NCBI GenBank assembly: GCA_020152595.1
Contig: JAIGNY010001753.1
Span: 1 to 64,000, forward strand
Origin: Chiridota heheva
Taxonomy: Eukaryota; Echinodermata; Holothuroidea; Apodida; Chiridotidae
Length of the DNA: 64,000 nt
Direction: 5' to 3'
Of the stretch, positions 25,328 to 59,994 are shown piece by piece. Under the pieces are notes generated by a model, which worked only from the letters and a program-made list of their open reading frames with translations, was not told where the DNA came from and ran no database searches. Within the stretch, counting starts at the first letter, position 1, and every line of letters begins with the position of its first letter. The position numbers and the translations under genes were made by a program.

Positions 25328-25381
25328 CACACACACACACACACACCCTCCCTCACACACACACATACACACACACACACT
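25328..25381. repeat. (CA)n microsatellite
   Basis: Two CA runs separated by CCCTCCCT. Confidence 0.95.
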
Positions 25382-26245: not shown

Positions 26246-26249
26246 TCCC

Positions 26250-27041: not shown

Positions 27042-27224
27042 TTTCAAGACATTAAGTTATGTTTTTAAATTAAAATCAAAATTTGAATTATGTCGGAAAT
27101 TGTGTGCGTGTGTGGAGGAGGGGGTGGGGGTGGTCACCTGCCCACATGAATTAAGATCCTGGTTTTGATAATCCAAATCGTGTTTCTCAGATTAATATTT
27201 CGTCAGTCGAAGTGTCATCCAATG

Positions 27225-27345
27225 CGTATAGCCAAGGCGTATATAACCAATGCGTATAGCCAATGCGTATATAACCAATGCGTATAGCCAATGAATGCGT
27301 ATAGCCCATGCGTATAGCCAATGCATATATAACCAATGTATTTTT
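27225..27345. repeat. ATGCGTATAGCCA short tandem repeat (left arm)
   Basis: Units ATGCGTATAGCCA and ATGCGTATATAACCA alternate, about seven in all. The mirrored site at 59,680-59,755 has about five, in different order. Confidence 0.88.
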
Positions 27346-27749
27346 TACTTTATTTGATCTCAACTTGCTATAGTCAGATAGTGCAGATGACTCACGGGGC
27401 GTAATAGAAATACCCCTTCTTGAGTTTCGTCCGTGGCACTATTGGATGGCGTCCATGTCTTTACCAACTGTATTTGCCCCATTCCAGGGTCATAAATCCT
27501 GGGGGTATTTAACATAATAGCTTTTGAAGAAAAAACAGTGTTGGTGAACACTGTCTGACTGTTGAGGAAAATATATGCATCATTAATTAAAGTAGGGCAT
27601 TAAAATTTTAAATGGTGGGTCTGCAACCAGTGAGTTTACAACTGGTTATCAAAGGCCGTGGACATTAAAGCTTGCTACGCTATGCTAAATGCTGTAAAAT
27701 GATTAATTGTTAATCCATCTTGATGGAACGTTCTACTGCATATTTTCTT

Positions 27750-28015
27750 CCAATTAAAGCTCAAGGTAAATGTCAGGGTTGTAGGAAGCTTTTGAAAAGT
27801 GTGTGTGTGTGTGTGGGTAGGAGGGGGGAGGGGTGGGGGTGCTTTCCCAAGTCATATGCAAAAGTCCGCCTCTGTTTGTAGACAATAAAGTGGCCTGGAA
27901 GGGCATTTTATTTTTAGGAAAAGGCACGTTTTCAATGGGACTACATTCCCCCGTACATGGGATGGCAAAAATCGCCATTTTCCTACTATTGGGTCGGTAA
28001 TTAAGGGGAATTTCT
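27750..28015 (-). repeat. Dispersed repeat with poly-pyrimidine core (left-arm copy)
   Basis: Shares with 59,036-59,275, 59,995-60,262 and 62,855-63,120 the ordered words TACTGACCCAATAGTA-like start, AAAAATAAAGTG, TTATTGTCTACA, CATATGACTT and AAAGCTTCCTACA. The last two copies lie outside the palindrome, so this is a genomic repeat family. Confidence 0.75.
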
Positions 28016-28228
28016 GAGATTATATGCTATCAACAAATTAATTTAGCATTAATCACGGAAGGTTGTAAGGTGCATACACGGCAACTAATTCTTGTAAGCG
28101 TGTGTGCACTTACACTGAGGTATATGGGGATATAATGCTGCTACCAAATTTCCAGGCTACCGTATAATATATGGCAAAACCGATGTAATGAACGTGGGCA
28201 GCGGACCGATTGCTTTAATCCTTAAAAT

Positions 28229-28318
28229 GGGCTTTCAGACAAAAGATTTGAAAAAATGGGCTTTCAGACAAAAGATTTGAAAAAATGGGCTTTCAGACAA
28301 AAGATTTGAAAAAATGGG
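28229..28318. repeat. 29-bp triplication unique to the left arm
   Basis: Three units of GGGCTTTCAGACAAAAGATT followed by TGAAAAAAT. The mirrored site in the right arm (58,775-58,805) has one. Confidence 0.92.
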
Positions 28319-28599
28319 AAAGAAAGAACGGTTAAAGGTGAACTAAACCCATATTTCAGGGGGTCTTTTTGGTGAATTTTCAAATCTCCATTGACCTGTT
28401 TTACCTCCCTAAGTGAAAAAATTGTATTAATTATAAATCTCAGAAAACTTTACCTCGTATAAATATTTGTGTTAGAGAAGTTTTGAGGCTCTCTAAAAGG
28501 ATCGAAAAACATTTGTGAGTCTCTGGAAAATTATGTCCTTATTTTTGGTGTAGTGCCCCTTTAATATAATTGAAGGAGATTATATGAGGTCACGATGCA

Positions 28600-29355
28600 G
28601 ATGTCAAATGTCATTGAATGCAGAACTTGAAAGACGCGGGGAAATTGTTATTCTGGATTTAATCAATGCACTTCGAAGACGTCTGAAGCTTGCTGTCTAT
28701 TAGGCGGGAAATTTAACCTCTACGGAAAAGGTAATTAATGCTTAAATAATTTGCTATTATATCATAATCTAAGAAAGAATGAGTTACCATGTTTATTTAT
28801 TGTGACTTACATGTGCTTTTCCTGGAATATGCCTAAAAAAAGTGAAATACAAGTGAAATGTTTTTTGTTATCATAATTCTGAGTATTAGGCCTAATTAAC
28901 GTTTATTGACAAATGTCTTTGATTGTACTAATACAGCCTTTGATTCCCCTCGGTTGCAGAGCTTTTGTTTTCCTTAGGCTGTTTCTCTAAATTACCCATA
29001 TTCTCCATAAAGCTATTTAACACTGATTTTAACCTTTTCCATTTTTTCAGAAACGTTTTGCTGTCTGTTAGGCGGGACAATGTCAATTAATGCAGCAAAG
29101 TGAGTTTAAAAAGCAAAAAGATGTTATCATTTGTTATTCCGGATTTGTTCATGGCACGATCGGAGACAGCTTATCTACATGAATGCAGTCAGGCTGGGGC
29201 AATGTCAATACATGCAGGAAATAAATTTAAAAAACAAAGGACGCGAGAAATTTTGAATATTTTTTTTATTTTGGATGATCATGGTTCTTCGGAGACAGTC
29301 TGCAGGGCAACCAGGCTGGGAAAATCAACCTCTTTTGGAAAGGTAATGCCTTTTT
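28600..29355 (+). repeat. Diverged ~120-150-bp repeats ending in a donor-like GGAAAGGTAAT (left arm)
   Basis: Three or four related blocks share GACGCG(G/A), GTTATTC(T/C)GGATTT, a Cys/Gly-rich stretch with GCGGGA or CTGGG, and end ACGGAAAAGGTAATT or TTGGAAAGGTAATG. Mirror copies lie at 57,725-58,500. I cannot show that they are exons; stops interrupt each frame. Confidence 0.5.
28795..28862 (+). repeat. SINE 3' tail fragment (left arm)
   Basis: TTGTGACTTACATGTGCTTT, TCCTGGAATATGCC and AAAGTGAAATACAAGTGAAA match the 3' end of the SINE at 19,025-19,453. The mirror copy is at about 58,245-58,310. Confidence 0.75.
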
Positions 29356-29719
29356 ATTTCTTTTTATATATATACATATAATAGCATGATCTAAGAAATA
29401 ATGATTTATTATGTTTGTCAATGGTTTTTATAATGAAATTTGAAAGATATGTAGGCCTAAGTGTTATTTTTCTAAAAACCATTGGATATGTTAGAAAAGT
29501 ATACAGAATTTTAGTACTATAATTTACCACCTGAAGAAAGTTTGAGCAAAAATGAATTTTCTTCAAAATACATTAACAATTGTTGTTAATGTGAGGAAGA
29601 GAGTGCCAACATTATACAGCTCACTTATTACACAGTCATTTTTAGCTTGACTTTTCGAAGAATAGAAGAGCTATTCTACTCCCCCTCCCCCTCCCTTCCT
29701 GCGTCGGCGTGGGTAAAGT

Positions 29720-31370
29720 TTTGGTTAAAGTTTTCATAAGTTAAGTTATGAATGGTGTACATTCATGTGACTTGGCATATGGTTAGACGACATGAGTACT
29801 GATCAAATGAGCATGATTAGAGGGTTGTGTGTGCACACTAATTAGCTTATTTGCATAACAATGAAAATATACTTCATGTTTTGCTTAGTTTTTGGTTAGA
29901 CGTTTTTTGTTAAAGTTTTCATAACTTATGAATGGTGTACATTCATGTGACTAGGCATAGGGTAAAGGACATGGGTACTGTTCAAATGAGCATAATTGAG
30001 GGATTGTGTGTGCATACTAATTAGCTTATTTGCATAACTGCAAATATTTGTATCTATGATATCTCTTAAATTAAAGTGGATGTGGGGATTTTGTTTGAAC
30101 AAATGATCATATATGTAAAAAGTATTGTCTACACTTAATGATAAGGTGAAGTGTGCATAGTAATTAGGTTATTTGCATAACAGTAGACTCGTACAAGATG
30201 TTTAACATTCATGAGCGCATAACTAGTTATGAATGATGTACATTCATGTAACTTAGCACAGATGTAGATGGCATGGGTACTGTTCAAATAAGCATGATTA
30301 CATTAGTATGTTGTGTGTGCATACTAATTAGCTTATTTGCATAACAATGAAAATATGTGTATCTATGACATATCTTAAATTAAATTGGGAGTGGTGATTT
30401 TGTTTGCACAAATGATCATATATGTGAAGAGCATTGTCTACACTTAATGGTAAGATGTAATGTGCATGTTAATTAGGTTATTTGCATTACAACAAACTTT
30501 CGCGTAAAATATTTAACCTTAGATAATAACTTGGTACTTGTGACAGGGATAGAGAACATGGGTACTGTTCAAATAAACATGATTTGCTGCTGTGTGTGCA
30601 TACTAATTAGCTTATTTACATAGCAATGAAAATATTTGTCAAATTACAGTTTTGGTTAAAAGTTTTTGGTTAAAGTTTTCATAACTTATGTTATGAATGG
30701 TGTACATTTATGTAACTTGGCATAGGGGAACTGTTCAAGTGAGCATGATTAGGGTTTGTGTGCATACTACTTAGCTTATTTGCATTACAATGAAAATATT
30801 TGTATCTGTGATATCTCTTAAATTAAGTGGATGTGGGGATTTTGTTAACACAAATGATCACATATGTGAAAAGCATTGTCTACACTTAATGTTGAGGTGA
30901 AGTGTGCGTATGAATTAGGTTATTTTGTATTTGTATCTGTGATATTTCTTAAATTATTATTATTATCTTTAATTATATCTTAAATTAAAGTGGGAGTGGA
31001 GATTTTGTTTTACACAAATGATTATATATGTGAAGAGCATTGTCTACACTCAATGGTGAGGTAGAGTGTGCATATTAATTAGGCTATTTGCATAACAATA
31101 GACTTGGGTACAAAATATTTAACCTGAAATAATAACTTGCTATTTGGTTCAGTGGTAGAGGGCATTGGTACTGTTTATTTGAGCATAATTGGGGGATTGT
31201 GTGTACATAATAATTAGCCTATTTGCATAGCAATGAAAATTGTTGTATATGTTGTATCTCTTGAATTAAAGTGGGTATGATGATTTTGCTTGAACAAATG
31301 ATCATACAGTATATGTGAAAAGCATTGTTCACACTTAATGGTGAGGTATAGTGTGCATTTGCTGCAATAT
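29720..31370 (+). repeat. ~320-bp tandem repeat array rich in octamer motifs (left arm)
   Basis: About five diverged units. Each contains GAATGGTGTACATTCATGT, GGTACTGTTCAAATGAGCAT, TGTGTGTGCATACTAATTAG, CTTATTTGCATAAC, then AAATGATCATATATGTGAAA, GCATTGTCTACACTTAATG and a second TTAGGTTATTTGCATAAC. Each unit therefore carries two ATTTGCAT octamers about 150 bases apart, about eight intact in the array. Confidence 0.88.
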
Positions 31371-31599
31371 GTTTGACCGGAGATTAAAAATATATGGCTT
31401 ATGGCTTACTAACTTCACATTGCTAGTTTTGTTATGATATTGACATTCCTGACAATCAAATGTTTGTCTTCTCATGAACAAAGAAGCAAAAAAAAGTGTC
31501 CTCGCTTCTAAAGAATGTTAAATTAGAAATTTGTGAAATATAAACAATACGCAGAATGCGGGGTAGAAGATGACATGATGATAAAGTAGCTGAAGGATT

Positions 31600-31965
31600 T
31601 AGGATGAGGTCATGTGGGACAGGGTGGAATTGTATGTTATGGCAGGGTGCGGTGGGATGTTGGTCAGGATGTGTTGGCATGTTAGACATGGTGGATTGGC
31701 ATGTAGAACAGGGTGGGTTGGCATGTGGAACAGGATGGCTTGGCATGTGGAACAGGGTGGGTTGGCATGTGGAACAGGGTGGGTCGACATGTAGGACAAG
31801 GCGGAATGACATGTGGTGGGATGTCTTCTGGATTTCAGTTGTGATGGCATATGCCGGGTCTTGCAAGTGGTGGAATGACATACAGTATCTGGTTTTCAGG
31901 TGTGATTGCATGGAGTATAAACGTGGGATGACATTTGGGACAGGTTGGGATGGAATGTTGGACAG
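31600..31965. repeat. 24-bp satellite block (left arm)
   Basis: Units such as GGCATGTGGAACAGGGTGGGTT. This is the complement orientation of the CCCACATGGCAT family, with tighter copies at 31,670-31,790. Open frames here are periodic artefacts. Confidence 0.85.
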
Positions 31966-32557
31966 TCTGGAATATGCATATATATATATATTAGCGGTGA
32001 GGGAATTTGTATCGTTTCCAATGTCTAGATTGTCATACCTTAAGCAATACTGTTTTGCATAATTTTGCTTTAATGTTATTGTACATTTTTTATGCTGCTT
32101 GACTTTGCTTGACACACATATTTTCTTCAATTGAAAGTTGTATTACAATCCAAGATGTAGTTCTGGGAATGTGTAGGGGCTTGGGGAGGGTACAGGTTGG
32201 AAAGGGGATTGGATGGTATTCTTTCATTGACATTGACAAGTCAGGGCCTCTCCTTTCTTTCTTATTCAATTGATAGAACTAAAAGAGGTGTTGTAGTTAT
32301 AAAGACTGCAAAGTTGTACATGTTTTTTGAGGTTATTCTACCTTTTTTGTCTCAAAATATCTTTGAAAATCTCAAAATATCTTGAAATATTTTGAAGCTT
32401 GTAGTGCAAATGAAAATGTAAGTGCATCTTTCAAAGCTCAAGTAATTTGAAATCATCTGCCCCGGCTACCCTACTTTTGTATATACTTCTCTCTATAAGC
32501 CCATTCTCTACACTAGCTTTGAATAGTCAAGCATACTGTCCTTCCGACAGTTCTAGA

Positions 32558-33190
32558 TTTTTATATGAAAGAGGACTTTGAAGAAAAAAATGGTGAAGAA
32601 AGCATTCAAAAATCTTATTCTGTAAGGAAATTCGTTAATTTAAAGTTTGGTATCATTTAGAAACGACTGAAATCAGACTTGCTGTGACATCACAGCCTCA
32701 GATTCCTCAAAGTCTTTACGTATTCTATCATATTTTGTCATGCGATTTTGCGGCTTAAAAACCATTGTTTATGTAAGGAAAGTAGTAAAACAGAATCTTG
32801 AAAGGGTAATTATAATTTAACACCTGAACAAAGTTAGAGGGAAAATAATCAAAATAGTAAAAAATTTCAATCAATTTTCTTTAATTAAAACACATTAACA
32901 AATGTTGATAATGTGAGGATAAGGACCCCAACCTTCTATGAAACGAAACTTTTAGTTTAATGACTGGGCTCCACAGCTGCAGGCCGTGCTACAAATTCAC
33001 ACCAACGAGATACAAGCACAAATGAATGTAGAACGAGCACGGACAAACCCTCTATAGTAGACTTACAACACCAGTCATTTCTACATAGATAAAACAGAGC
33101 CTTCAACTTGAATATCTCATTAACCGAATAAGATATTAAAGTAGTTTCTTCACCATTTTATTTCTCTTCAATTCCTCTTTTATGTAAAAT
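32558..33190. mobile_element. Long-TIR non-autonomous element (left arm)
   Basis: The left end (TTATATGAAAGAGGACTTTG, AATGGTGAAGAAA, ATCTTATTC, AAACGACTG) recurs as an inverted copy at the right end (33,060-33,190), giving terminal inverted repeats of roughly 110-130 bp. The interior includes CTCCACAGCTGCAGGCCGTG, shared with 24.0 kb. No transposase is seen. The mirrored copy is at 53,925-54,550. Confidence 0.6.
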
Positions 33191-33524
33191 AAACTTGCTT
33201 GACCACTAAACTAATCCTTTAAAGTCCGGTCTATATACACACAGTAAAAGTATATGGGAAGTAGGGTGCATTATGGGAACATGCATCAAATCAAATGAAT
33301 CTAAATTTAAAATCTTAAGTTTTAAAGAAGTGAGCCCTTCGAATAACTCCCTGACTGTTTCTGTGCCTCTACCTGCCCATAAAAAAACAAGTATTGATTA
33401 AAGATCTATGGACAGGTGTCATATAACAATAACATCAACCATGAAAATAGCAAAAAAAGTAACATATTCGGTTAAAAAAACGACCATTTTACTGCTGCAT
33501 TTTGAATTTTCAGGCCTTATTATA

Positions 33525-33925
33525 ATATGTTCTCTTATCCGGCTCCCCTGCCCCTTTCTGCCCCACTTGCAACATCGATCTCTCCATCAAGCATATATAT
33601 TTAACCTGTCCCCTCTAACAGAACTCCAGACCTCTTCTCTCCTCAATCTCGGACCAATTTGAAAACAATTCTTCCTCAAACATCATCAACTTTCTCCGCA
33701 ACAACAAGCTCTTCCACCACATATAATCTCTTCTCCTTCTACACCTAACCTTATACACCCCTTTCTTTTCATCTAATTTGTTCTCCCATATTCAGTTTTT
33801 CCCTTTTATCTCTCTTACAAACCTTCCATCTCCTCACTATCCTTACTCTTATACCATTATTTATTTACCCCCTCTTTGCACATTTGACTCCGACTGTCGC
33901 GGTGCCGTTAAACATCAACGAACCA
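33525..33925 (+). pseudogene. 3' end of a non-LTR retrotransposon (left arm)
   Basis: The plus strand encodes CPTCNIDLSIKHIYLTCPL, then an in-frame TAA where the mirror copy has Tyr, then QNSRPLLSSISDQFENN and INFLRNN. This is the C-terminal Cys-Cys-His-Cys block of an ORF2 protein. The 3' UTR ends GTCGCGGTGCCGTTAAACAT then AACGAACCAAACC. Confidence 0.75.
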
Positions 33926-34429
33926 AACCAAACCTTATAAAAAATTATGCAAATTTATAGAAATGAGACATAGTATTAAGTTAACCTATTGTTTTTTTAA
34001 TCCTCCAACAACGTTTTAAATCTCCATCATACCTTTCTCAAAATTTAGCAGGAGAAAATAGTCTTGATTTTCAGTGACCTGGTGACTGACATTTTGGAGA
34101 GAAAGCATAACTTTAAAGATATTCAGCTGTCCTATGTACATCAAAACTTTTGCTTATATTTTAATTATATTTAATTTTTGCATATATTTTAATTAGCCAT
34201 GTATCGGAAACTACGGGTGCTTTTGACATAATCAAAATACATTCTGTTCCGCATTTAAGGATCTTTGTGGTGAATACAACATCTCTATCTGTTCATATAC
34301 ACATCTAAATCAGGTATTTGTTCTATAACACATCGTGCTAAAATCCAACATGCTATTATTCATAGTTTTTATCATTAGTATTTTTGCTGTTGAAAATCTT
34401 CATAGGTTCTTTAATATGGAATGTAGAAT

Positions 34430-36939
<2,510 letters not shown>

Positions 36940-37990
36940 GAGCGATGGCGTACAAACGAAGGATGGGTTGTGTGAATAAAGCATGACACTGGATAGTAAT
37001 AGGTAGGCATAAGATGAGATAAAGAGCTGGATGGTTTAAGTTGAAATGGCATGTGGGACATAGGGTGCGATGGAATGTGTGACATAGGGGTGACATAGTG
37101 TTTTGGACATATGAATGGAAGGTATTGCATAAGGGTGATATTGCGTATAAAAATAAGCCTAGTTTGAAATATATGTGATATTGGGTGGATCGACATGTGG
37201 AATTAGGTGATATGCATAGGATAGTGGGTTTGGCATATGCGACATACAGTGATATGTCACATGGGACATAGTTTGGGATGGGACATATGATGAGATAACA
37301 TATGGGAAATAGATTGGGATGACATTCATGACATGGTGGGATGGCACGTGGAACATAGGGAACAAAGTGGGATGACATGTGTGAGATGGTGGATATCGCG
37401 TACATGTTTAATACAGAGAGTGCTTATAATATGAGTCATAGGTGGAATGGCATATGGGACATGGATGGGAGGGTATATGAGGCATAATATTGTATTGTAA
37501 ATACATATATTGTAATACAATATTGTATATTGTACGGTGGGACATACCGGGTCGGATGTCATATGGTACATAGGTTTTAGTGACGTATGGGGCATAGAGT
37601 GCGATTGACACGGGTGACGTATTGTGGCTGCATCGATGGTGTATGCGACATGGGCTAAAATATCAAATGGGAAATAGGGTGGGATGGAAGATATTGGACA
37701 TGTATGGGATTGCGTACAAATATTAAGATATAGGCAGGGGTATCATAGGACCAGGGACCTAAATAGCAGGTCCCTGATAGGACATAGGATGAATTGGCAT
37801 ATGGGACAGGGCGGGATGGAATAGTGGGTGTGATGGCGGACATGTCTAAAACAGAATGACCATATGGACATAGGACGGCTTATGGCATAAGGTGGGATGG
37901 AAGTTCGGATTATATATGGGACATAGGGTGGGATATCATATGGGTAGGGATGCTATTTGGTATGGAGGTTGGGATGGCATAGCTTGTCTC
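36940..37990. repeat. Degenerate ~24-bp satellite field, inner part (left arm)
   Basis: Continuation of the CATATGGGACATAGGGTGGGAT family. Near 37,735-37,775 a local hairpin AGGGACCT...AGGTCCCT, and near 37,490-37,535 a palindrome of TGTAATACAATATTG type, add structure. Confidence 0.85.
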
Positions 37991-38342
37991 TTATGCTCTC
38001 TCTTATGCTTAGTTTATTCTAAGGTATGAGCAGGTATAATTTTTTATATTTACCAAAAGATCTTAAAAAACCTTAAATTTCAAAATTTGGAAATTTGTAA
38101 TGAATGCAAAGTTGTTGTTTTAATTCCTGTTCAGTGTATCCAGATTCTTCCATTCAAAATATTTGAGGGAAGGACCAAAAAGGATCATCATACTGTACAA
38201 CAACTTTAAAATGCAATTAGGATATGTTTAACATTCCATATCTCCTGAATGAAATATGATATCAACTTGATTTTTGTACCAAATTGGATCTAAATGTATT
38301 CTTTTTTAAATAAAATTTTACAAAAAACCATGGGAATATTCC

Positions 38343-41300
38343 TTTAAGTTGCGACTTAAGGTTGCGACTTGAGGTTGCGACTTGAGGTTGCGATTGAGGT
38401 TGCGACTTGAGGTTGCGACATGAGGTTGCGCTTAAGGTTGTGACTTGGGGTTGCGACTTGGGGTTGCGGCTTGGTGTTGCGACTTGAGGTTGCGACTTGA
38501 GGTTGCGACTTGAGGTTGCGACTTGAGGTTGCGACTTGAGGTTGCGACTTGAGCTGGCGACTTGAGCTGGCGACTTGAGCTGGCGACTTGAGCTGGCGAC
38601 TTGAGCTGGCGACTTGAGCTTGCGACTTGAGCTTGCGACTTGAGCTTGCGACTTGAGTTAGCGACTTAAGTTAGCCACTTGCTTAAGTTAGCAACTTAAG
38701 TTAGCGATTTGAGGTTGCGACTTGAAGTTGCGACTAGAGAATTTGCGACTTGAGGTTTCGACTTGAGGTCAATTGAGTCTTACGACTTGAAGTTGCGACT
38801 TGAGCTGCGACTTGAGGTTGCAACTTGAGCTTGCAACTTGAGCTTGCAACTTGAGCTTGCAACTTGAGCTTGCAACTTGAGCTTGCAACTTGAGGTTGTG
38901 CCTTGAGCTCGCCACTAGAGCGCCTTGAGCTCGCAACTTAGGATCGCAACTTGAGTTCGCGACTTAAGAGCTTGCGACTTGAGCTCATGACTTAAGTTAG
39001 CAAATTGAGCTAGCGACTTGAGTTAGCGACTTGACTTAGAGACCTGAGATAGAGACCTGAGTTAGCGACTTGAGTTAGCGACTTGAGTTAGCGACTTAAA
39101 GTCAATTAAGTCTTGCGACGTGAGCCGCAACTTGCGTTAGCGACTTGAGTTAGCGAATTGAGTTAACGACTTGAGTTAGAGACTTGAGTTAGCGACTTGA
39201 GTTAGCAACTTGAGTTAGCCACTTAAGGTCAATTAGGTCTTGCGACTTGAGCTGCGACTTGAGCTTGCGACTTGAGGTTGCGCCTGGACTTTGCGACTTG
39301 GGGTTGCACCTTGAGGTTGCGACTTGAGGTCAATTGAGTCTTACGACTTGAGGCTTGCGACTTGAGGTCAATTGAGTTTTACGACCTGAGGTTGCGACTT
39401 GAGCTGCGACTTCAGCTTGCAACTTCAGCTTGCAACTTGAGGTTTTGCCTGGAGTTGGCGACTTGAGGCTGGGACTTGAGCTTGCGACTTGAGCTAGCGA
39501 CTAGAGCTAGCGACTTGAGCTTCCGACTTAAGGTTGCGACAAGTTACGCTCGCGACTTGAGCTTGCGACTTGAGCTTGCGACTTTAGCTCCGACCTGATT
39601 TAACGACTCAAAGTTGCGACTTGAGATTGCGACGTCTTGAGCTCGCGACTTGAGCTCGCGACTTGAGCTCGCAACTTGAGTTAGCGACTTGAGTTAGCGA
39701 CTTGGGTTAGAGACTTGAGTTAGAGACTTGAGTTAAAGACTTGAGTTAGCGACTTGAGTTGGCGACTTGAGTTGGCGACTTGAGTTGGCGACTTGAGTTG
39801 GCGACTTGAGTAGGCGACTTGAGTTGGCGACTTGAGTTGGCGACTTGAGTTGGCAACTTGAGTTGGCGACTTGAATTAACGACTTGAGTTAGCGACTTGA
39901 GTTAGCGACTTGAGTTAGTGACTTGAGTTAGCGACTTGAGTTAGCAACTTAAGTTAGCAACTTAAGTTAGCGATTTGAGGTTGCGACTTGAAGTTGCGAC
40001 TAGAGGTTGCGATTTGAGGTTACGACTTGAGGTCAATTGAGTCTTACGACTTGAAGTTGCGACTTGAGCTGCGACTTGAGATTGCAACTTGAGCTTGCAA
40101 CTTGAGCTTGCAACTTGAGCTTGCGACTTGAGCTCGTGACTTAAGTTAGCAAATTGAGCTAGCGACTTGAGTTAGCAACTTGACTTAGAGACCTGAGTTA
40201 GAGACCTGAGTTAGCGACCTGAGTTGGCGACTTGACTTAGCGACTTAAGGTCAATTAAGTCTTGCGACTTGAGCTGCAACTGCGTTAGCGACTTGAGTTA
40301 GCGACTTGAGTTAGCGAATTGAGTTAACGACTTGAGTTAGCCACTTAAGGTCAGTTAGGTCTTGCGACTTGAGCTTGCGACTGGAGTTAGCGACTTGTGT
40401 TAGCAGCTTGAGGTCGCGATTTGAGGTTAATTAAGTCTTGCGACTTGAGCTGCGACTTGAGCTTGCGACTTGAGGTTGCGCCTGGACTTTGCGACTTGGG
40501 GTTGCAACTTGAGGTTGCGACTTGAGGTCAATTGAGTCTTATGACTTGAGGTTTGCGACTTGAGGTCAATTGAGTTTTACGACTTGAGGTTGCGACTTGA
40601 GCTGCGACTTGAGCTTGCAACTTCATCTTGCAACTTGAGGTTTTGCCTGGAGTTGGCAACTTGAGGCTGGGACTTGAGCTTGCAACTTGAGCTAGCCACT
40701 TGAGCTAGCGACTTGAGCTTCCGACTTAAGGTTGTGACAACTTACGCTCGCCACTTGAGCTTGCGACTTGAGCTTGCGACTTTAGCTCCGACCTGAGTTA
40801 GTGACTTGAAGTTGCGACTTGAGATTGCGACGAGTTGAGCTCGCGACTTGAGCTTGCAACTTGAGTTAGCGACTTGACATACCGACTTGAGTTAGCGACT
40901 TGAGTTGGCGACTTGAGTTGGCGACTTGAGTTGGCGACTTGAGTTGGCGACTTGAGTTGGCGACTTGAGTTGGCGACTTGAGTTGGCGACTTGAGTTGGC
41001 GTCTTGAGTTGGCGTCTTGAGTTGGCGACTTGAGTTGGCGACTTGAGTTAGCGACTTGAGTTAGCGACTTGAGTTAGGGACTTGAGTTAGCGGCTTGAGT
41101 TAGCGGCTTGAGTTAGCGGCTTGAGTTAGCGGCTTGAGTTAGCGGCTTGAGTTAGCGGCTTGAGTTAGCGGCTTGAGTTAGCGGCTTGAGTTAGCGGCTT
41201 GAGTTAGCGGCTTGAGTTAGCGGCTTGAGTTAGCGGCTTGAGTTAGCGGCTTGAGTTAGCGGCTTGAGTTAGCGGCTTGAGTTAGCGGCTTGAGTTAGCG

Positions 41301-42065
41301 GCTTGAGTTAGCGGCTTGAGTTAGCGGCTTGAGTTAGCGGCTTTGAGTTAGCGGCTTGAGTTAGCGGCTTGAGTTAGCGGCTTGAGTTAGCGGCTTGAGT
41401 TAGCGGCTTGAGTTAGCGGCTTGAGTTAGCGGCTTGAGTTTGCGGCTTGAGTTTGCGGCTTGAGTTTGCGGCTTGAGTTTGCGGCTTGAGTTTGCGGCTT
41501 GAGTTTGCGGCTTGAGTTTGCGACTTGAGCTCGCGACTTGAGTTTGCGACTTGAGCTCGCGACTTGAGCTCGCGACTTGAGTTTGCGACTTGAGTTTGCG
41601 ACTTGAGTTTGCGACTTGAGTTTGCGACTTGAGTTTGCGACTTGAGTTTGCGACTTGAGTTTGCGACTTGAGTTTGCGACTTGAGTTTGCGACTTGAGTT
41701 AGCGACTTGAAGTCAATCAATTAAGTCTTGCAACTTGAGCAAGCTTAGGCTTGAGCTTGCGACTTGAGCTTGCGACTTGAGCTTGCGACTTGAGTTAGCG
41801 ACTTGAGTTAGCGACTTGAGTTAGCGACTTGAGTTAGCGACTTGAGTTAGCGACTTGAGTTAGCGACTTGAGTTAGCACCTTGAGTTAGCGACTTGATTT
41901 AGCGACTTGAAGTTAATCAATTAAGTCTTGCAACTTGAGCAAGCTTAGCCTTGAGCTTGCGACTTGAGCTCGCGACTTGAGTTGGCGACTTGAGCTCGGG
42001 ACTTGAGCTCGCGACTTGAGATCGCGACTTGAGGTTGCGCCTGGAGCTTTCGCCTTGAGCTTGCG
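38343..42065 (+). repeat. 13-bp satellite, orientation A (left half of spacer)
   Basis: Units of GCGACTTGAGTTA and variants (GAGCTC, GGTTGC, GAGTTGGC forms). Longer segments recur at about 1.2 kb: for example GGTTGCGCCTGGACTTTGCG at about 39,277 and 40,475, and GAGGCTGGGACTTGAGCTT at about 39,465 and 40,662. This is a higher-order repeat of roughly 1.2 kb. Confidence 0.96.
41088..41440. repeat. Homogenised 13-bp sub-array TTGAGTTAGCGGC
   Basis: About 27 almost identical units with a single one-base insertion (near 41,342), against a background where neighbouring units differ from one another. This indicates recent local expansion. Confidence 0.95.
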
Positions 42066-42069
42066 TCCG

Positions 42070-42690: not shown

Positions 42691-42699
42691 CGGCGACCG

Positions 42700-44842: not shown

Positions 44843-44845
44843 CGA

Positions 44846-48100: not shown

Positions 48101-48474
48101 AGTTGCAACCTCAAGTCGCAGCTCAAGTCGCAACTTCAAGTCGTAAGATCAATTGACCTCAAGTCGTAACCTCAAGTCGCAACCTCTAGTCGCAACTTCA
48201 AGATGCAACCTCAAATCGCTAACTTAAGTTGCTAACTCAAATCGCTAACTTAAGTCGCTAACTCAAGTTGCAAGCTCAGGTCGCAAGCTCAAGTCGCCAG
48301 CTCAAGTCGCCAGCTCAAGTTGCAATCTCAAGTCGCAACCTTAAGTCGCAACCTTAAGTCGCAATCCCAAGTCGCAACCTCAAGTCACAACCTTAAGCGC
48401 AACCTCATGTCGCAACCTCAAGTCGCAACCTCAAGTCGCAACCTCAAGTCGCAACCTCAAGTCGCAACCTAAAG
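45189..48474 (-). repeat. 13-bp satellite, orientation B (right half of spacer)
   Basis: Reverse-complement forms of the left array: TCGCTAACTCAAG, CTCAAGTCGCGAG, CTCAAGTCGCAAC. A homogeneous CTCAAGTCGCGAG run lies at 46,830-46,955. Larger segments recur, for example CTAATGTCGCAAGCTCAAG at 45,238 and 46,808, and CCAGACGCAACCTCCAGTCG near 46,000 and 47,525. Confidence 0.96.
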
Positions 48475-49870
48475 GAATATTCCCATGGTTTTTTGTAAAA
48501 TTTTATTTAAAAAAGAATACATTTAGATCCAATTTGGTACAAAAATCAAGTTGATATCATATTCCATTCAGGAGATATGGAATGTTAAACATATCTAATT
48601 GCATTTTAAAGTTGTTGTACAGTATGATGATCCTTTTTGGTCCTTCCCTCAAATATTTTGAATGGAAGAATCTGGATACAATGAAGAGGAATTGAAACAA
48701 CAACTTTGCATTCATTACAAATTTCCAAATTTTGAAATTTAAGAGTTTTTAAGATCTTTTGGTAAATATAAAAAAAAGTACCTGCTCATACCTTAGAATA
48801 AACTAAGTATAAGAGAGAGTATAAGAGACAAGCTATGCCATCCCAACCTTCATACCAAATAGCATCCCTACCCATATGATATCCCACCCTATGTCCCATA
48901 TATAATCCGAACCTCCATCCCACCTTATGCCATAAGCCGTCCTATGTCCATATGGTCATTCTGTTTTAGACATGTCCGCCGTCACACCCACTATTCCATC
49001 CCGCCCTGTCCCATATGCCAATTCATCCTATGTCCTATCAGGGACTTGCTATTTAGGTCCTGGTCCTATGATACCCCTGCCTATATCTTAATATTTGTAC
49101 GCAACCCCATACATGTCCAGTATCTTCCATCCCACCCTATTTCCCATTTGATATTTTAGCCCATGTCGCATACACCATCGATGCAGCCACAATACGTCAC
49201 CCGTGTCATCGCACCCTATGCCCCATACGTCACTAAAACCTATGTACCATATGACATCCGACCCGGTATGTCCCACCGACAATATACAATATTGTATTAC
49301 AATATATGTATTTACAATACAATATTATGCCTCATATACCCTCCCATCCATGTCCCATATGCCATTCCACCTATGACTCATATTATAACCACTCTCTGTA
49401 TTATACATGTACGCGATATCCACCATCTCACACATGTCATCCCACTTTGTTCCCTATGTTCCACGTGCCATCCCACCATGTCATAAATGTCATCCCAATC
49501 TATTTCCCATATGTTATCTCATCATATGTCCCATCCCAAACTATGTCCCATATGACATACCACTGTATGTCGCATATGCCAAACCCACTATCCTATGCAT
49601 ATCACCTAATTCCACATGTCGATCCACCCAATATCACATATATTTCAAACTAGGCCTATTTTTATACGCAATATCACCCTTATGCAATACCTTCCATTCA
49701 TATGTCCAAAACACTATGTCACCCCTATGTTACACATTCCATCGCACCCTATGCCCCACATGCCATTTCAACTATGTACCATCCAGCTCTTTATCTCATC
49801 TTATGCCTATATTACTATCCAGTGTTATGCTTTATTCACACAACCCATCCTTCGTTTGTACGCCATCGCT

Positions 49871-50399
<529 letters not shown>

Positions 50400-51429
50400 A
50401 CACATGCCACCCTATCCCATATCCAATGTTTAAAATGGTATCTAACTCTTTCTTATACGCAACCGACCTTTATCCAGTATGTTCCATCCCACCCTTTTGT
50501 CTCACATACCATCCTACTCTTTGTCCTGCATACCATCCCCACCATATGCCCCTAATCCCCCCTATGTCACATATGACAACACACTTTTATGTCCCATATG
50601 CCATTTCACCATATGTTCCATCCCAACACATGTCCCATATGACAACCTACGCTATGTCGCATAAGTGTACGCCAAACTCATTATCATATACATATCATAT
50701 CACACTGTTCCAAATGACATTCCACAATGTGACATTTTACCCTTGTCCCATATAACATTCCACACTATATGTCCCATATGATATACCACCCTATGTCGTA
50801 TAATCAATTTCACCCTCGATCCAATATTTTCCATGGCAACATACGACCCACATGCTTCATGTGACATTTTAACCTATGTACCATATGCCATCCATGTCGT
50901 ACGCGCATTATCCCCTTTATGCCACCCTACGTCTCTTATGCCAACCCACCTCATGTTCCACATGATATCCCACCCTTTCTCTTTTAATCAATCTCATCCT
51001 CTATCCAATATTTTCTATCTACCATTTATGCTCAACATACATGTCCCACATGCCAGTATGCTTCACATGGCATTTCAACCTATGTACTATATGCCATCCA
51101 TCTCACCTTATGCCTCATATGCTATTCCATGCTATGCGCCATAAGTCATACCACCCTTGTCCCATACGCCACACCAAATTATGTCCCATATGACAGCAAA
51201 CTTTATGTCTTATACACGTTCGCCATTACACCCACCATACCATCCCATCCTGTCCCACGTGATAGTCGACCATTTTTCGTATAACAATCCAACCCTCTAT
51301 CCATTATCATGCATCCCCCACTTTTATCATTTCCTATTTCGCATCTCAGCCCATTTCACATTCATCATCGACGCAGCCACCATAAGTGACACATGTCGTC
51401 GCTCCTATGCGCATATACGTGATTCAAAT

Positions 51430-52000
51430 CTATGTAACACCCAACTCACCTTATGCCCCATATGCCATACAATACTGTGCATCACATTCCATCTCATCCA
51501 TTTCTCATATGCCATACAATACTGTGCATCACATTCCATCTGATCCATTTCCCATATGCCATACAATACTGTGCATCACATTCCATCCCATCCATTTCCC
51601 ATATGCCATACAATACTGTGCCTCACATTCCATCTCATCCATTTCCCATATGCCATACAATACTGTGCCTCACATTCCATCCCATCCATTTCCCATATGT
51701 CATGCAATACTTGCCTCGCATTCCATCCCATCCATTTCCCATATGCCATACAATACTGTGCCTCACATTCCATCTCATCCATTTCCTATATGCCATACAA
51801 TACTGTGCCTCACATTCCATCTCATCCATTTCCCATATGCCATACAATACTGTGCCTCACATTCCATCCCATCCATTTCCCATATGTCATGCAAACTTGC
51901 CTCGCATTTCCATCCCATCCATTTCCCATATGCCATACATTACTGTGCCTCGCATCCCATCCCATCCATTTTCCATACAATGCTGTGCCTCAGAACCCAC
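51430..52000. repeat. 47-bp minisatellite (right arm)
   Basis: About eleven units of CCATACAATACTGTGC(A/C)TCA followed by CATTCCATC and CATCCATTTCCCATATG, mirror of 35,100-35,510 with about three extra units. Confidence 0.92.
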
Positions 52001-53189
52001 CCTGTTTTCTACATGTTCGCCATTATATCCACCATCTCACACATGCCATCCAACTACTTCGTCCCATATACCAACTCCCGCGATGTCCCATATGATATTC
52101 CATTATACGCAATCCCACTCTTTACCTTTCATCCCAATCAATTCCCATATGACGTCCCACCCTATGCCCCATACGCCATTCCATCTGATGAACCATATAA
52201 GCCACCCAACTCTCCCTCCCATCACGTGTCCAATGTGATGTATCATTTGTGCCATCACATTACATGTACCATATGCCATTCTACACTATGTCCCACATTT
52301 TATCTCACCCAATTTCTTATACACAAACCCACCCTTTGTCCAATACCGCCCCCCTCCTCGAACTGTACCCATATGGCATCCCATCTATGACGCACATACC
52401 ATCCCATCTATGACCCACGAGTCATCTCAGCTACGCCCCATATGCCATTTCGCCTATTATCCACATGCCATCTCAGCTACGTCCCATATGCCATTCCACC
52501 TATGACCCATATGCCACCCCACCTATGACCCACATGCCATCCCACCTATGGTCCACATGCCATCCCACCTATGGTCCATGCCATGACCTATGATACACAT
52601 GCCATCCCACCTATGATCCGCATACCACCCCACCTGTGATTCACATGCCATTCCGCCATCTATGACCTGATAACCGACATGTCATTGCATTCTACATTCC
52701 ATATTAAAGAACCCATGAAGATTTTCAACAGCAAAAATACTAATGATAAAAACTATGAATAATAGCATGTTGGATTTTAGCATGATGTGTTATAGAACAA
52801 ATACCTGATTTAGATGTGTATATGAACAGATAGAGATGTTGTATTCACCACAAAGATCCTTAAATGCGGAACAGAATGTATTTTGATTATGTCAAAAGCA
52901 CCCGTAGTTTCCGATACATGGCTAATTAAAATATATGCAAAAATTAAATATAATTAAAATATATGCAAAAGTTTTAATGTACATAAGACAGCTGAATATC
53001 TTTAAAGTTATGCTTTCTCTCCAAAATGTCAGTCACTGAAAATCAAGACTATTTTCTCCTGCTAAATTTTGAGAAAGGTATGATGGAGATTTAAAACGTT
53101 GTTGGAGGATTAAAAAACAATAGGTTAACTTGATACTATGTCTCATTTCTATAAATTTGCATAATTTTTTATAAGGTTTGGTTTGGTTC

Positions 53190-53590
53190 GTTGATGTTTA
53201 ACGGCACCGCGACAGTCAGAGTCAAATGTGCAAAGAGGGTGTAAATAAATAATGGTATAAGAGTAAGGATAGTGAGGAGATGGAAGGTTTGTAAGAGAGA
53301 TAAAAGGGAAAAACTGAATATGGGAGAACAAATTAGATGAGAAGAAAGGGGTGTATAAGGTTAGATGTAGAAGGAGAAGAAATTATATGTGGTGGAAGAG
53401 GTTGTTGTTGCGGAGAAAGTTGATGATGTTTGAGGAAGAATTGTTTTCGAATTGGTCCGAGATTGAGGAGAGAAGAGGTCTGGAGTTCTGGTAGAGGGGA
53501 CAGGTTAAGAATATATGCTTGATGGAGAGATCGATGTTGCAAGTGGGGCAGAAAGGGGCAGGGGAACCGGATAAGAGAACATATTATAAT
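53190..53590 (-). pseudogene. 3' end of a non-LTR retrotransposon (right arm)
   Basis: Minus-strand mirror of 33,525-33,925. It reads CPTCNIDLSIKHIFLTCPLY then QNSRPLLSSI, without the stop seen in the left arm. It is still only a C-terminal fragment with no polymerase domain. Confidence 0.78.
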
Positions 53591-53924
53591 AAGGCCTGAA
53601 AATTCAAAATGCAGCAGTAAAATGGTCGTTTTTTTAACCGAATATGTTACTTTTTTGCTATTTTCATGGTTGATGTTATTGTTATATGACACCTGTCCAT
53701 AGATCTTTAATCAATACTTGTTTTTTTGTGGGCAGGTAGAGGCACAGAAACAGTCAGGGAGTAATTCGAAGGGCTCACTTCTTTAAAACTTAAGATTTTA
53801 AATTTAGATTCATTTAATTTGATGCATGTTCCCATAATGCACCCTACTTCCCATATACTTTTACTGTGTGTATATAGACCGGACTTTAAAGGATTAGTTC
53901 AGTGGTCAAACAAGTTTATTTTAC

Positions 53925-54550
53925 ATAAAAGAGGAATTGAAGAGAAATAAAATGGTGAAGAAACTACTTTATATCTTATTCGGTTAATGAGATATTCAAG
54001 TTGAAGGATCTGTTTTATCTATGTAGAAATGACTGGTGTTGTAAGTCTACCATGGAGGGTTTGTCCGTGCTCATTCTACATTCATTTGTGCTTGTATCTC
54101 GTTGGTGTGAATTTGTAACACGGCCTGCAGCTGTGGAGCCCAGTCATTAAACTAAAAGTTTCGTTTCATAGAAGGTTGGGGTCCTTATCCTCACATTATC
54201 AACATTTGTTAATGTGTTTTAATTAAAGAAAATTGATTGAAATTTTTTACTATTTTAATTATTTTCCCTCTAACTTTGTTCAGGTGTTAAATTATAATTA
54301 CCCTTTCAAGATTCTGTTTTACTACTTTCCTTACATAAACAATGGTTTTTAAGCCGCAAAATCGCATGACAAAATATGATAGAATACGTAAAGACTTTGA
54401 GGAATCTGAGGCTGTGATGTCACAGCAAGTCTGATTTCAGTCGTTTCTAAATGATACCAAACTTTAAATTAACGAATTTCCTTACAGAATAAGATTTTTG
54501 AATGCTTTCTTCACCATTTTTTTCTTCAAAGTCCTCTTTCATATAAAAAT
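53925..54550. mobile_element. Long-TIR non-autonomous element (right arm)
   Basis: Mirror of 32,558-33,190: TTTTACATAAAAGAGGAATT at the left end and CAAAGTCCTCTTTCATATAA at the right. Confidence 0.6.
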
Positions 54551-55119
54551 CTAGAACTGTCGGAAGGACAGTATGCTTGACTATTCAAAGCTAGTGTAGA
54601 GAATGGGCTTATAGAGGAAGTATATACAAAAGTAATGGGCAGATGATTTATAAGGCTTTGAAAGATGCACTTACATTTTCATTTGCACTACAAGCTTCAA
54701 AATATTTCAAGATATTTTGAGATATTCAAAGATATTTTGAGACAAAAAAGGTAGAATAACCTCAGAAAACATGTAAAACTTTGCAGTCTTTATAACTACA
54801 ACACCTCTTTTAGTTCTATCAATTGAATAACAAAGAAAGGAGAGGCCCTGACTTGTCAATGTCAATGAAAGAATACCATCCAATCCCCTTTCCAACCTGT
54901 ACCCTCCCCAAGCCCCTACACATTCCCAGAACTACATCTTGGATTGTAATACAACTCCCAATTTAAGAAAATATGTGTGTCAAGCAAAGTCAAGCAGCAT
55001 AAAAAATGTACAATAACATTAAAGCAAAATTATGCAAAACAGTATTTGTTAAGGTATGACAATCTAGACATTGGAAACGATACAAATTCCCTCACCGCTA
55101 ATATATATATATGCATATT

Positions 55120-55490
55120 CCAGACTGTCCAACATTCCATCCCGACCTGTCCCAAATGTCATCCCACGTTTATACTCCATGCAATCACAACTGAAAACCA
55201 GATACTGTATGTCATTCCACCACTTGCAAGACCCGGCATATGCCATCACAACTGAAATCCAGCAGACATCCCACCACATGTCATTCCGCCTTGTCCTACA
55301 TGTCGACCCACCCTGTTCCACATGCCAACCCACCCTGTTCCACTTGCCAACCCATCCTGTTCCACATGCCAACCCACCCTGTTCTACATGCCAATCCACC
55401 ATGTCTAACATGCCAACACATCCTGACCAACATCCCACCGCACCCTGCCATAACATACAATTCCACCCTGTCCCACATGACCTCATCCTA
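55120..55490. repeat. 24-bp satellite block (right arm)
   Basis: CACATGCCAACCCACCCTGTTC units, mirror of 31,600-31,965. Confidence 0.85.
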
Positions 55491-55739
55491 ATTCCTTCAG
55501 CTACTTTATCATCATGTCATCTTCTACCCCACATTCTGCTTATTGTTTATATTTCACAAATTTCTAATTTAACATTCTTTAGAAGCGAGGACACTTTTAT
55601 TTGCTTCTTTGTTCATGAGAAGACAAACATTTGATTGTCAGGAATGTCAATATCATAACAAAACTAGAAATGTGAAGGTAATAAGCGATAAGCCATATAT
55701 TTTTGATCTCCGGTCAAACATATTGCAGCAAATGCACAC

Positions 55740-57380
55740 TATACCTCACCAATAAGTGTGAACAATGCTCTTCACATATACTGTATGATCATTTGTTTAA
55801 GCAAAATCATCATACCCACTTAAATTCAAGAGATACAACATATACAAATATTTTCATTGCTATGCAAATAGGCTGATTATTATGCACACACAATCCCCCA
55901 ATTATGCTCAAATGAACAGTCCCAATGCCCTCTACCACTGAACCAAATAGCAAGTTATTATTTCAGGTTAAATATTTTGTACCCAAGTCTATTGTTATGC
56001 AAATAACCTAATTAATATGCACACTCTACCTCACCATTGAGTGTAGACAATGCTCTTCACATATATGATCATTTGTGTAAAACAAAATCTCCACTCCCAC
56101 TTTAATTTAAGATATGATTAAAGTTTTAATAATAATTTAAGAAATATTACAGATACAAATACAAAATAACCTAATTAATACGCACACTTCACCTCAACAT
56201 TAAGTGTAGACAATGCTTTTCACATATATGATCATTTGTGCCAACAAAATCCCCACATCCACTTAATTTAAGAGATATCACAGATACAAATATTTTCATT
56301 GTTATGCAAATAAGCTAAGTAGTATGCACACAAACCCTAATCATGCTCACTTGAACAGTTCCCCTATGCCAAGTTACATAAATGTACATCATTCATACAT
56401 AACAAAAGTTATGAAAACTTTAACCAAAAACTTTTAACCAAAACTGTAATTTGACAAATATTTTCATTGCTATGTAAATAAGCTAATTAGTATGCACACA
56501 CAGCAGCAAATCATGTTTATTTGAACAGTACCCATGTTCTCTATCCCTGTAACAAGTATCAAGTTATTATCTAAGGTTAAATATTTTACGCGAAAGTTTA
56601 TTGTAAAGCAAATAACCTAATTAACATGCACATTACATTTTACCATTAAGTGCAGACAATGCTTTTCACATATATGATCATTTGTGCAAACAAAATCACC
56701 ACTCCCAATTTAATTTAAGATATATCATAGATACACATATTTTCATTGTTATGCAAATAAGCTAATTAGTATGCACACACAAGATACTAATGTAATCATG
56801 TTTATTTGAACAGTACCCATGCCATCTACATCTGTGCTAAGTTACATGAATGTACATCATTCATAACTAGATGCGCTCATGAATGTTAAACATTTTGTAC
56901 GAGTCTACTGTTATGCAAATAACCTAATTAATATGCACACTTCACCTCATCATTAAGTGTAGACAATACTCTTTAAATATATGATCATTTTTTTCAAACA
57001 AAATCCCCACATCCACTTTAATTTAAAAGATATCATAGATACAAATATTTGCAGTTATGCAAATAAGCTAACTAGTATGCACACACAATCCCTCAATTAT
57101 GCTCATTTGAACAGTACCCATGTCCTCTACCCTATGCCTAGTCACATGAATGTACACCATTTATAAGTTATGAAAACTTTAACAAAAAACGTCTAACCAA
57201 AAACTTTAAGCAAAACATGAACTATATTTTCATTGTTATGCAAATAAGCTAATTAGTATGCACACACAACCCTCCAATCATGCTCATTTGATCAGTACTC
57301 ATGTCGTCTAACCATATGCCAAGTCACATGAATGTACACCATTCATAACTTAACTTATAAAAACTTTAACCAAAACTTTA
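55740..57380 (-). repeat. ~320-bp octamer-rich tandem array (right arm)
   Basis: Mirror of 29,720-31,370, with TTATGCAAATAAGCTAATTA and TTATGCAAATAACCTAATTA recurring. ATGCAAAT octamers are retained at nearly the same sites as on the left; a few are lost on each side. Confidence 0.88.
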
Positions 57381-57724
57381 CCCACGCCGACGCAGAAAGG
57401 AAGGGGGGGGGGGGGAATAGTTCTACTATTAGCTAAAAATGACTGGTGTAATAAGTGAACTGTTTAATGTTGGCACTCTCTTCCTCACATTAACAACAAT
57501 TGTTAATGTATTTTGAAGAAAATTTATTTTTGCTCAAGCTTTCTTCAGGTGGTAAATTATAGTACTAGATTCTGTATACTTTTCTAACATATCCAATGGT
57601 TTTTAGAAAAATAACACTTAGGCCTACATATTTTTCAAATTTCATTATGAAAACCATTGACAAACATAATAAATCATTATTTCTTAGATCATGCTATTAT
57701 ATGTATATATATAAAAAGAAATAA

Positions 57725-58500
57725 AAAGGCATTACCTTTCCAAAAGAGGTTGATTTTCCCAGCCTGGTTGCCCTGCAGACTGTCTCCGAAGAACCATGAT
57801 CATCCAAAATAAAGAAAATATTCAAAATTTATCGCGTCCTTTGCTATATAAAATTCATTTCCGGCATGTATTGACATTGCCCCAGCCTGACTGCATGCAT
57901 GTCAGCATGTAGATAAGCTGTCTCCGATCGTGCCATGAACAAATCCGGAATAACAAATGATCAACATTTCGCGCGTCTTTTTGCTTTTTAAACTCACTTT
58001 GCTGCATTCATTGACATTGTCCCGCCTAACAGACAGCAAAACGTTTCTGAAAAAAATGGAAAAGGTTAAAATCAGTGTTAAATTGCTCGATGGAGAATAT
58101 GGGTAATTTGGAGAAACAGCCTAGGAAAAACAAAAGCTTTGCAACCGAGGGGAATCAAAGGCTGTATTAGTACAATCAAAGATATTTGTCAATAAACGTT
58201 AATTAGGCCTAATACTCAGAATTATGATAACAACAAACATTTCACTTTTATTTTACTTTTTTTAGGCATATTTCAGGGAAAGCACATGTAAGTCACAATG
58301 AATAAACATGGTAACTCATTCTCTCTTAGATTATGATATAATAACAAATTATTTAAGCATTAATTACCTTTTCCGTAGAGCTTGATTTTCCCGCCTAATA
58401 GACAGCAAGCTTCAGACGTCTTCGAAGTGCATTGATTAAATCCAGAATAACAATTTCCCCGCGTCTTTTTTGCATTCAATGACATTTGACATCTGCATTG
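57725..58500 (-). repeat. Diverged ~120-150-bp repeats (right arm)
   Basis: Mirror of 28,600-29,355, for example ATTACCTTTCCAAAAGAGGT and ATTACCTTTTCCGTAGAGCT. The SINE tail fragment lies within it at 58,245-58,310. Confidence 0.5.
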
Positions 58501-59035
58501 TGACCTCATATAATCTCGTTCAATTATATTAAAGGGACACTACACCAAAAAATAAGGACATAATTTTCCAGAGACTCACAAATGTTTTTCGATCCTTTTA
58601 GAGAGCCTCAAAACTTCTCTAACACAAATATTTATACGAGGTAAAGTTTTCTGAAATTCATAATTGATACAATTTTTTCACTTAGGGAGGTAAAACAGGT
58701 AAATGAAGATTTAAAATTTCACCAAAAAGACACCATAAATATGGGTCTAGTTCACCTTTAACCGTTCTTTTTTCCCATTTTTCAAATCTTTTGTCTGAAA
58801 GCCCATTTTAAGGATTAAAGCAATCGGTCCGCTGCCCACGTTCATTACATCGGTTTTGCCATATATTATACGGTAGCCTGGAAAGTTGGTAGCATCGACG
58901 TATCCCCATATACCTCAGTGTAAGTGCACACACGCTTACAAGAATTAATTGCCGTGTATGCACCTTACAATCTTCCGTGATTAATGCTAAATTAATTTGT
59001 TGTAGCATATAATCTCAGAAGTTCCCCTTAATTAC

Positions 59036-59275
59036 TGACCCAATAGTAGAAAAATGGCAATTTTTGCCATCCCATGTACGGGGGAATGTAGTCCCATTGA
59101 AAACGTGCCTTTTTCTAAAAATAAAGTGTCCTTCCAGGCCACTTTATTGTCTACAAACAGAGGCGGACTTTTGCATATGACTTGGGAGAGCACCCCTCCC
59201 CCTCCCCCCTCCCACTCACACACACACACTTTTCAAAAGCTTCCTACAACCCTGACATTTACCTTGAGCTTTAAT
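59036..59275 (+). repeat. Dispersed repeat, right-arm copy
   Basis: Mirror of 27,750-28,015: GACCCAATAGTAGAAAAATG at the start and TTTTCAAAAGCTTCCTACAA at the end. Confidence 0.75.
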
Positions 59276-59994
59276 TGGAAGAAAATATGCAGTAGAACGT
59301 TCCATCAAGATGGATTAACAATTTACCATTTTACAGCATTTAGCATAGCATAGCATGGTTGAATGTCCCACGGCCTTTGATAAGCTTTTGTGAACTCACT
59401 GGTTGCAGACCCACCATTTAAAATTTTAATGCCCTACTTTAATTAATTATGCTTATATTTTCCCCAACAGTCAGACAGTGTTCACCAACACTGTTTCTTC
59501 TTCAAAACCTATTATGTTAAATACCCCCATGATTTATGACCCTGGAATGGGGCAAATACAGTTGGTAAAGACATGGACGCCATCCAATAGTGCCACGGAC
59601 GAAACTCAAGAAAGGGTATTTCTATTACGCCCTGTGAGTCATCTGCACTATAGCAAGTTGAGATCAAATAAAATAAAAATACATTGGTTATATATGCATT
59701 GGCTATACGCATTGGCTATACGCATTGGTTATAAACGCATTGGCTATACGCATTGGATGACACTTCGACTGACGAAATATTAATCTGAGAAACACGATTT
59801 GGATTACAAAACCAGGATCTTAATGTATGTGGGCAGGTGACCCCCCCCCCCCCCACACACACACACACGCACACAATTTCCGACATAATTCAAATTTTGA
59901 TTTTAATTTATAAACATAACTTAATGTCTTGAAATTGAAAAGTGCCCCTCAATCACTGTCAAAGATGCAAGAACTGGTGGAATTTGAGCACACT

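Follow-up and report, generated by a model that had tools for sequence, protein, structure and literature searches.

A large palindrome inside a dispersed repeat of Chiridota heheva, probably formed by inverted duplication of one arm

Introduction

Human fold-back inverted duplications are described as large and as accompanied in patients by terminal deletions, translocations or rings (PMC3907307), and the gene-converting palindromes of mammalian sex chromosomes are reported to have an arm identity above 99% together with a guanine–cytosine (GC) bias (PMC8981503). Long inverted repeats of Caenorhabditis, compared between species and containing gene pairs, are presented as being kept by an active process (PMC1803023), and Tetris, a foldback transposon of Drosophila virilis, is portrayed as a dispersed element whose inverted arms hold tandem repeats able to grow into satellite (PMC4079207). 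Here we analyze a palindrome of the holothuroid Chiridota heheva that spans positions 27042–59934 of the window, that is, of bases 1–64,000 of the 2,651,170-bp contig JAIGNY010001753.1 (C1689 below; assembly GCA_020152595.1, searched as 1.10 Gb in 3,744 contigs). The window carries a copy of a large dispersed repeat, and this copy is probably a rearranged one, in which a fold-back or template-switch inverted duplication of the left arm (L), with loss of the ordinary right arm (R), was followed by conversion between L and its new inverted copy (L'). No such repeat family or case was recognized in the open-licence literature searched.

Results

Self-alignment of the window gave four inverted, collinear pairs, 27042–28260 with 59934–58774 (91% with gaps counted), 28282–35501 with 58809–51598 (95.7%), 35106–36936 with 51859–50021 (96.5%) and 36561–42699 with 50247–44159 (82%); the long pieces have E=0, and a match of such length and order is far beyond chance. 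It thereby confirmed the two inverted arms in collinear order that a preliminary description of this DNA had noticed, although the arm length given there, 11.3–11.5 kb, holds for the part outside the satellites, the whole arms being longer (Table 1). Over 27042–36540, one minisatellite being left out, 264 of 9,242 compared sites differ between L and L'; between the arms, 160 transitions and 106 transversions were counted, and the biggest indels (140, 60, 45 and 19 bp) all lie inside tandem repeats. Because the arms differ by these substitutions and by indels of tandem units, a simple fold-back read artefact was rejected.

The 13-bp satellite, previously taken for a spacer between the arms, belongs to both of them: its motif is found in the plus orientation at ~38365–42025 (129 hits) and in the minus orientation at ~45184–48455 (103 hits), and the two ranges do not overlap. 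The GC-rich repeats are also inverted about the gap 42675–42789 (local alignment score 295 inverted vs 29 direct). Since satellite and GC-rich repeats are themselves inverted, the palindrome has almost no spacer; the true spacer at the centre amounts to at most ~115 bp and lies within inverted GC-rich repeats, as is expected of a fold-back or template-switch duplication. The strand of the centre is predicted to form a strong hairpin (DNA folding z −5.8; 0 of 200 shuffles equally stable).

The arms constitute one half of a dispersed repeat, a circumstance that the preliminary description overlooked. Genome searches scored the best 40 places, so that the counts given here are lower bounds and not copy numbers. 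The outermost 659 bp of the arm matched at the best 40 places, on 38 contigs, among which a close inverted pair occurs only in C1689, and other copies extend outward beyond 27042 to 25381 (best 40 places, on 40 contigs, the window included) and further, by which 27042 was rejected as a transposon end. The segment 61728–63990 is also repeated (best 40 places scored, including two pieces of one copy, C3496), so that each end of the repeat is met in many dispersed copies, a feature of foldback transposons. In at least 17 cases including the window, the two ends are no more than 60 kb apart on the same contig (9 cases from the searches with the two ends, 7 more with the outer 659 bp of the arm in place of the left end, and C91), the copies carrying both ends having been listed by hand; the pieces are oriented as in the window in 16 of these 17, C2428 having pieces both ways. 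The distance between shared ends ranges from 17.5 kb (C3694) to 51.0 kb (C1449), as computed from hand-entered coordinates in which the C91 and C1142 values were not used, and is 38.6 kb in the window and ~30.1 kb in C91. Sequence common to the copies passes both 25381 and 64084, where the window copy does not share it, and the true ends of the family are therefore not reached; a target-site duplication at these two points was rejected, common sequence lying beyond the left point in 6 of 7 other copies and beyond the right point in all 7. The homology between the arms stops at 27042 and 59934 as first described, but beyond 59934 lies the right side of this repeat family rather than unrelated flanking DNA.

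To judge from its sequence, the family looks large and non-coding, and its mobility is putative. Among the 14 of its open frames that were scanned, none had a Pfam domain above the cut-off, no search for a partner transposase having been made, and Rfam matches reaching the gathering threshold were found neither in the window nor in the greater part of the C91 copy. A 198-aa open frame beside the C91 copy (segment L038:5919–6512, minus strand; a sub-threshold Pfam match) was rejected as a gene of the family, since its only full match is its own locus and the other two matches in the genome are weak (28% and 36%).

Other copies have a different right half. In C91, C1264 and C1562 an R arm comes after the core or a shortened L and matches L, inverted and collinear, at 70–82%, so that the palindrome of the window sits where the diverged right arm sits in these three visible copies; inverted arms holding tandem repeats, another foldback-transposon feature, are accordingly seen in 3 of 12 other copies. 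Between copies, the R arms are 93–95% alike in C1264 and C91 (one short piece 75%) and 76–97%, mostly 83–95%, in C1562 and C91; being more like one another than like L, they indicate that the split of L and R is older than the spread of these copies. The cores vary by copy, with arrays of CGACTGGCGGGTC and GGGGAGCGGA in C1264, a 25-bp array in C2342 and others in C3255 and C1961, and neither C91 nor C1264 showed the inverted 13-bp satellite. On the inner side of the junction point, C3658 carries, instead of L', an R-side minisatellite that also occurs in C91. In the window copy, the right side of the repeat directly adjoins L', and both the R arm and the R-side minisatellite are absent, a loss at the rearranged side.

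Trees and private-site counts were made from segments without tandem arrays, copies covering less than 70% of a segment being dropped from it; C1350, C1562, C3493, C2010 and C129 (10–20 kb fetched each) are without some or all inner segments. L and L' form a sister pair, supported at 99 in the outer zone (against 12 other copies), 99 in the middle (11) and 100 in the inner zone (11), and they have in common a ~70-bp deletion near 27218, where C91, C1264 and C1961 keep the sequence. At the outer junction (59800–60070), 37 of the best 39 other scored matches cover the right side only, 34 of them starting exactly at 59930, the remaining two cover L only, up to 59934, and none spans the join. The microhomology so delimited (Table 1) is a feature of fold-back or template-switch duplication, although 5 bp can also arise by chance.

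The divergence of L and L' is not even along the arms, being 4.71% out to 29,265 and 2.34% inward of it (identity 95.3% vs 97.7%). This contrast was reached in 0 of 300 permutations, with the change point sought at every site for the observed data and at every 20th for the permutations, which slightly favours the observed value; the heterogeneity among three zones has p=4e-7. Sites private to both arms and sites private to one arm stand at 18:91 outside ~32 kb and at 63:62 inside (p=5e-8), and in the trees the tips of the two arms measure 0.022/0.025 outside vs 0.011/0.009 inside, and the stem of L and L' 0.006 outside vs 0.019 inside. The divergence of L from C91 is even, 3.0–4.4% in 11 of 12 segments, so that a difference in rate does not explain the contrast. 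The inner arms appear to have split later than the outer arms, as later arm-to-arm conversion, or a second copying, would give. The proposal that gene conversion homogenized the arms is thus supported for the inner part only, where the arms are more alike than their age predicts, as in gene-converting palindromes; the arm identity stays below the 99% of such palindromes in both parts.

A further contig, C3725 (186 kb), matches 18344–27848 of the window at 89–94% with indels, and 19100–21110 was found in C1689 and C3725 only, among the places scored; C3725 is therefore probably the other allele, a duplication in two copies being the alternative that the sequence allows. In the outermost ~800 bp of the arm, where it entered the comparison, C3725 groups with L and not with L' (support 97; shared sites, 8 for L and C3725, 2 for L and L', 1 for L' and C3725), and L' is therefore not a misjoined haplotype of L. 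The private mutations of each arm, the common locus-specific ones and this grouping favour a real inverted duplication over a fold-back read or a haplotype misjoin, as the preliminary description had considered seriously possible. The palindrome is real in the assembly, on whose sequence alone the present analysis is based, and is probably real in the genome.

Table 1 Positions of the palindrome and of the repeat copy in the window.
Feature	Position	Strand	Basis or remark
Window copy of the dispersed repeat	25381..64000	+	begins after (AC)n run; C91 match continues to ~64084, past the window
Left palindrome arm L, including satellite part	27042..42674	+	self-alignment, satellite and core orientation; ~15.6 kb
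(AT)n tract in L	36561..36936		
13-bp satellite in L	38349..42065	+	
GC-rich minisatellite core	42076..44843		unlike cores of other copies examined
Palindrome centre, predicted hairpin-prone	42675..42789		inverted GC-rich repeats and DNA folding
Right palindrome arm L', inverted copy of L	42790..59934	-	self-alignment, tree, satellite and core orientation; ~17.1 kb
13-bp satellite in L', inverted	44840..48465	-	
(TA)n tract in L', mirrored place	49873..50398		
Microhomology TGAAA (5 bp) at the join of L' and right side	59930..59934		match ends of other copies and comparison with C3658; TGAAA common to the two sides of the join
Right side of the repeat, as in other copies, minus ~110 bp near 60651	59935..64000	+	

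Further observations concern the family and the surroundings. The L arms of C91 and C1350 differ at 6 of 2,585 sites over 31000–34120, but at 54 of 2,294 over 27042–29720, and may be recent copies, alleles or converted sequences. The tandem repeat of the arm at 29770–31358 extends over a much greater length in C1961 and C1350 than in the window. The 8-mer TAGGCCTA occurs 10 times in 74 kb (the window plus segment L009) and 32 times in the 229.9 kb of fetched copies, roughly ten times the expectation from base composition by a rough estimate. The left part of the window contains an exon-like frame with an alpha-galactosidase match (3425–3757, minus strand; Melibiase_2, E 1e-18), a broken LINE-type retrotransposon (10501–12914, minus strand) with matches to RVT_1 (reverse transcriptase) and Exo_endo_phos_2 (endonuclease), two large minisatellites (15904–18270, 41 bp × 58, and 18344–18709, 29 bp × 13) just left of the stretch common to C3725, and, within the left flank (21110–21993), a different dispersed repeat with 74–84% identity to many other places. 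Several contigs of the assembly are of round size (3,930,000; 2,165,000; 3,187,500; 680,000), as though a scaffolder had split them at fixed bins.

Discussion

Where the far side of other copies is visible, the ordinary layout of the repeat consists of the L arm, the 13-bp satellite, copy-specific GC-rich minisatellites, the R arm, as an old, inverted relative of L diverged from it by 18–30%, and the right side. In the predicted course of events, a broken end or a stalled synthesis would turn round within the GC-rich core (~42,690), and the L arm of the copy itself would then serve as the template for ~15.6 kb of copying. The new end would rejoin the right side at the 5-bp microhomology, and the R arm and its outer neighbour would be lost; the outcome, whether by fold-back or by template switching guided by microhomology, would be an inverted duplication accompanied by a deletion. 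Later gene conversion between the arms, or a second copying, may have evened the inner arms, to ~2.3% inside vs ~4.7% outside. The sequence directly shows the architecture, the sister relation of L and L', the microhomology, the missing R arm and the uneven divergence along the arms. We regard this course, inverted duplication with loss of R followed by conversion, as the probable origin of the window copy, the enzymology, the order of the events and the role of conversion in the younger inner arms being its more conjectural parts.

Several observations weigh against it. An R arm is seen in only 3 of the 12 other copies, the other nine showing none within the 10–20 kb fetched. At the outermost 27042–27215, L' differs from L by 5.2%, and its distances from C1350 (4.7%) and C1961 (5.2%) are no greater; these same 173 bp are the segment in which L and C91 diverge by 8.7%. 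The homology of L and R in C91 ends at ~27,095–27,105, only ~60 bp from 27042. The change point at 29,265 differs from the ~32 kb split of the private-site count, and several tracts are possible. A GC bias is a usual sign of gene conversion, and none was found: the shared private changes lean from strong to weak bases (S>W), with 11 S>W to 3 W>S in the outer part and 34 to 19 in the inner part, and GC-biased conversion was rejected. Finally, the junction is present once in the assembly, and C3725 stops inside the arm, so that the second haplotype gives no confirmation; an assembler halting at the palindrome might be the reason for this stop.

The last point would suit an assembly artefact, either a head-to-head join, within the GC-rich core, of two haplotypes or of two loci bearing the repeat, or an outer junction created by a chimeric read. 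The core is indeed hard to assemble, and 66000–67110, in the right flank, has no other match among the best 40 places scored that could represent its second haplotype. Nevertheless, C3725, the probable other allele, clusters with L rather than L', the sister arms L and L' have a deletion in common, and the divergence is patterned along the arm; moreover, the join between L' and the right side would persist even if the core were misassembled, and a real rearrangement would be needed to explain it. We thus judge an artefact unlikely.

Less likely still is a conversion in register, by which L and R were always present and R was overwritten by L up to the end of their homology, with no new join. 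It would explain the nearness of the homology end in C91 to 27042. However, in C3658 and C91 the R arm is separated from the right side by the R-side minisatellite, part of the ~2 kb in all that lie between the L–R homology end and the right side in C91, whereas L' here abuts the right side at the microhomology; furthermore, L' carries the inverted satellite that the R arms of C91 and C1264 do not show. These observations agree better with synthesis that turned within the core, copied L and was rejoined non-homologously. That the L arm of another copy was inserted independently next to the first is highly improbable, for although the distance of L' from C91 or C1350 does not exceed its distance from L over part of the outer arm, the two arms form a clade in every zone with a common deletion and private substitutions, and no closer donor exists among the copies compared.

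Going beyond the window, we may speculate, as a possibility that we hold to be doubtful, that these repeats constitute a novel type of very large non-coding dispersed element (17–51 kb between shared ends), an ancient imperfect palindrome with a copy-specific GC-rich minisatellite core, and that this hairpin-prone core repeatedly breaks and turns round, renewing the satellites and now and then rebuilding the palindrome from one arm.

Returning to the inverted duplication that we favour, the unrearranged members of the family give the ancestral state, and the case thus illustrates the way in which a large palindrome can arise and come to have inner arms younger than its outer ones. This origin is seen in a setting other than that of the well-known sex-chromosome genes, whichever chromosome the window belongs to, and the many comparable copies in one genome are material for studying how frequently arms are replaced or converted and whether such changes are provoked by the GC-rich minisatellite cores.

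The palindrome is worth comparing with the systems described above. With the human fold-back duplications, as outlined in PMC3907307, it shares an inverted copy beside its source, a short spacer, inverted sequence at the turn and the loss of sequence beyond the turn; in contrast to them, it lies inside a dispersed repeat, measures ~15–17 kb, was rejoined internally and is old enough to have diverged. Like the mammalian sex-chromosome palindromes as characterized in PMC8981503, it has large inverted arms with a divergence apparently lowered by arm-to-arm conversion, but its arms are 95–98% alike, only their inner part looks converted, and it shows no GC bias and no gene found. The symmetry outlasts the sequence outside a sex-chromosome setting, as in the Caenorhabditis repeats presented in PMC1803023, although here within one genome and a dispersed repeat. 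Finally, the family resembles Tetris, as portrayed in PMC4079207, in being a dispersed element with inverted arms holding tandem repeats, but it spans 17–51 kb between shared ends, the arms of its ordinary copies are only 70–82% alike, and neither fixed ends nor target-site duplications nor a transposase domain came to light in the copies and open frames analysed.

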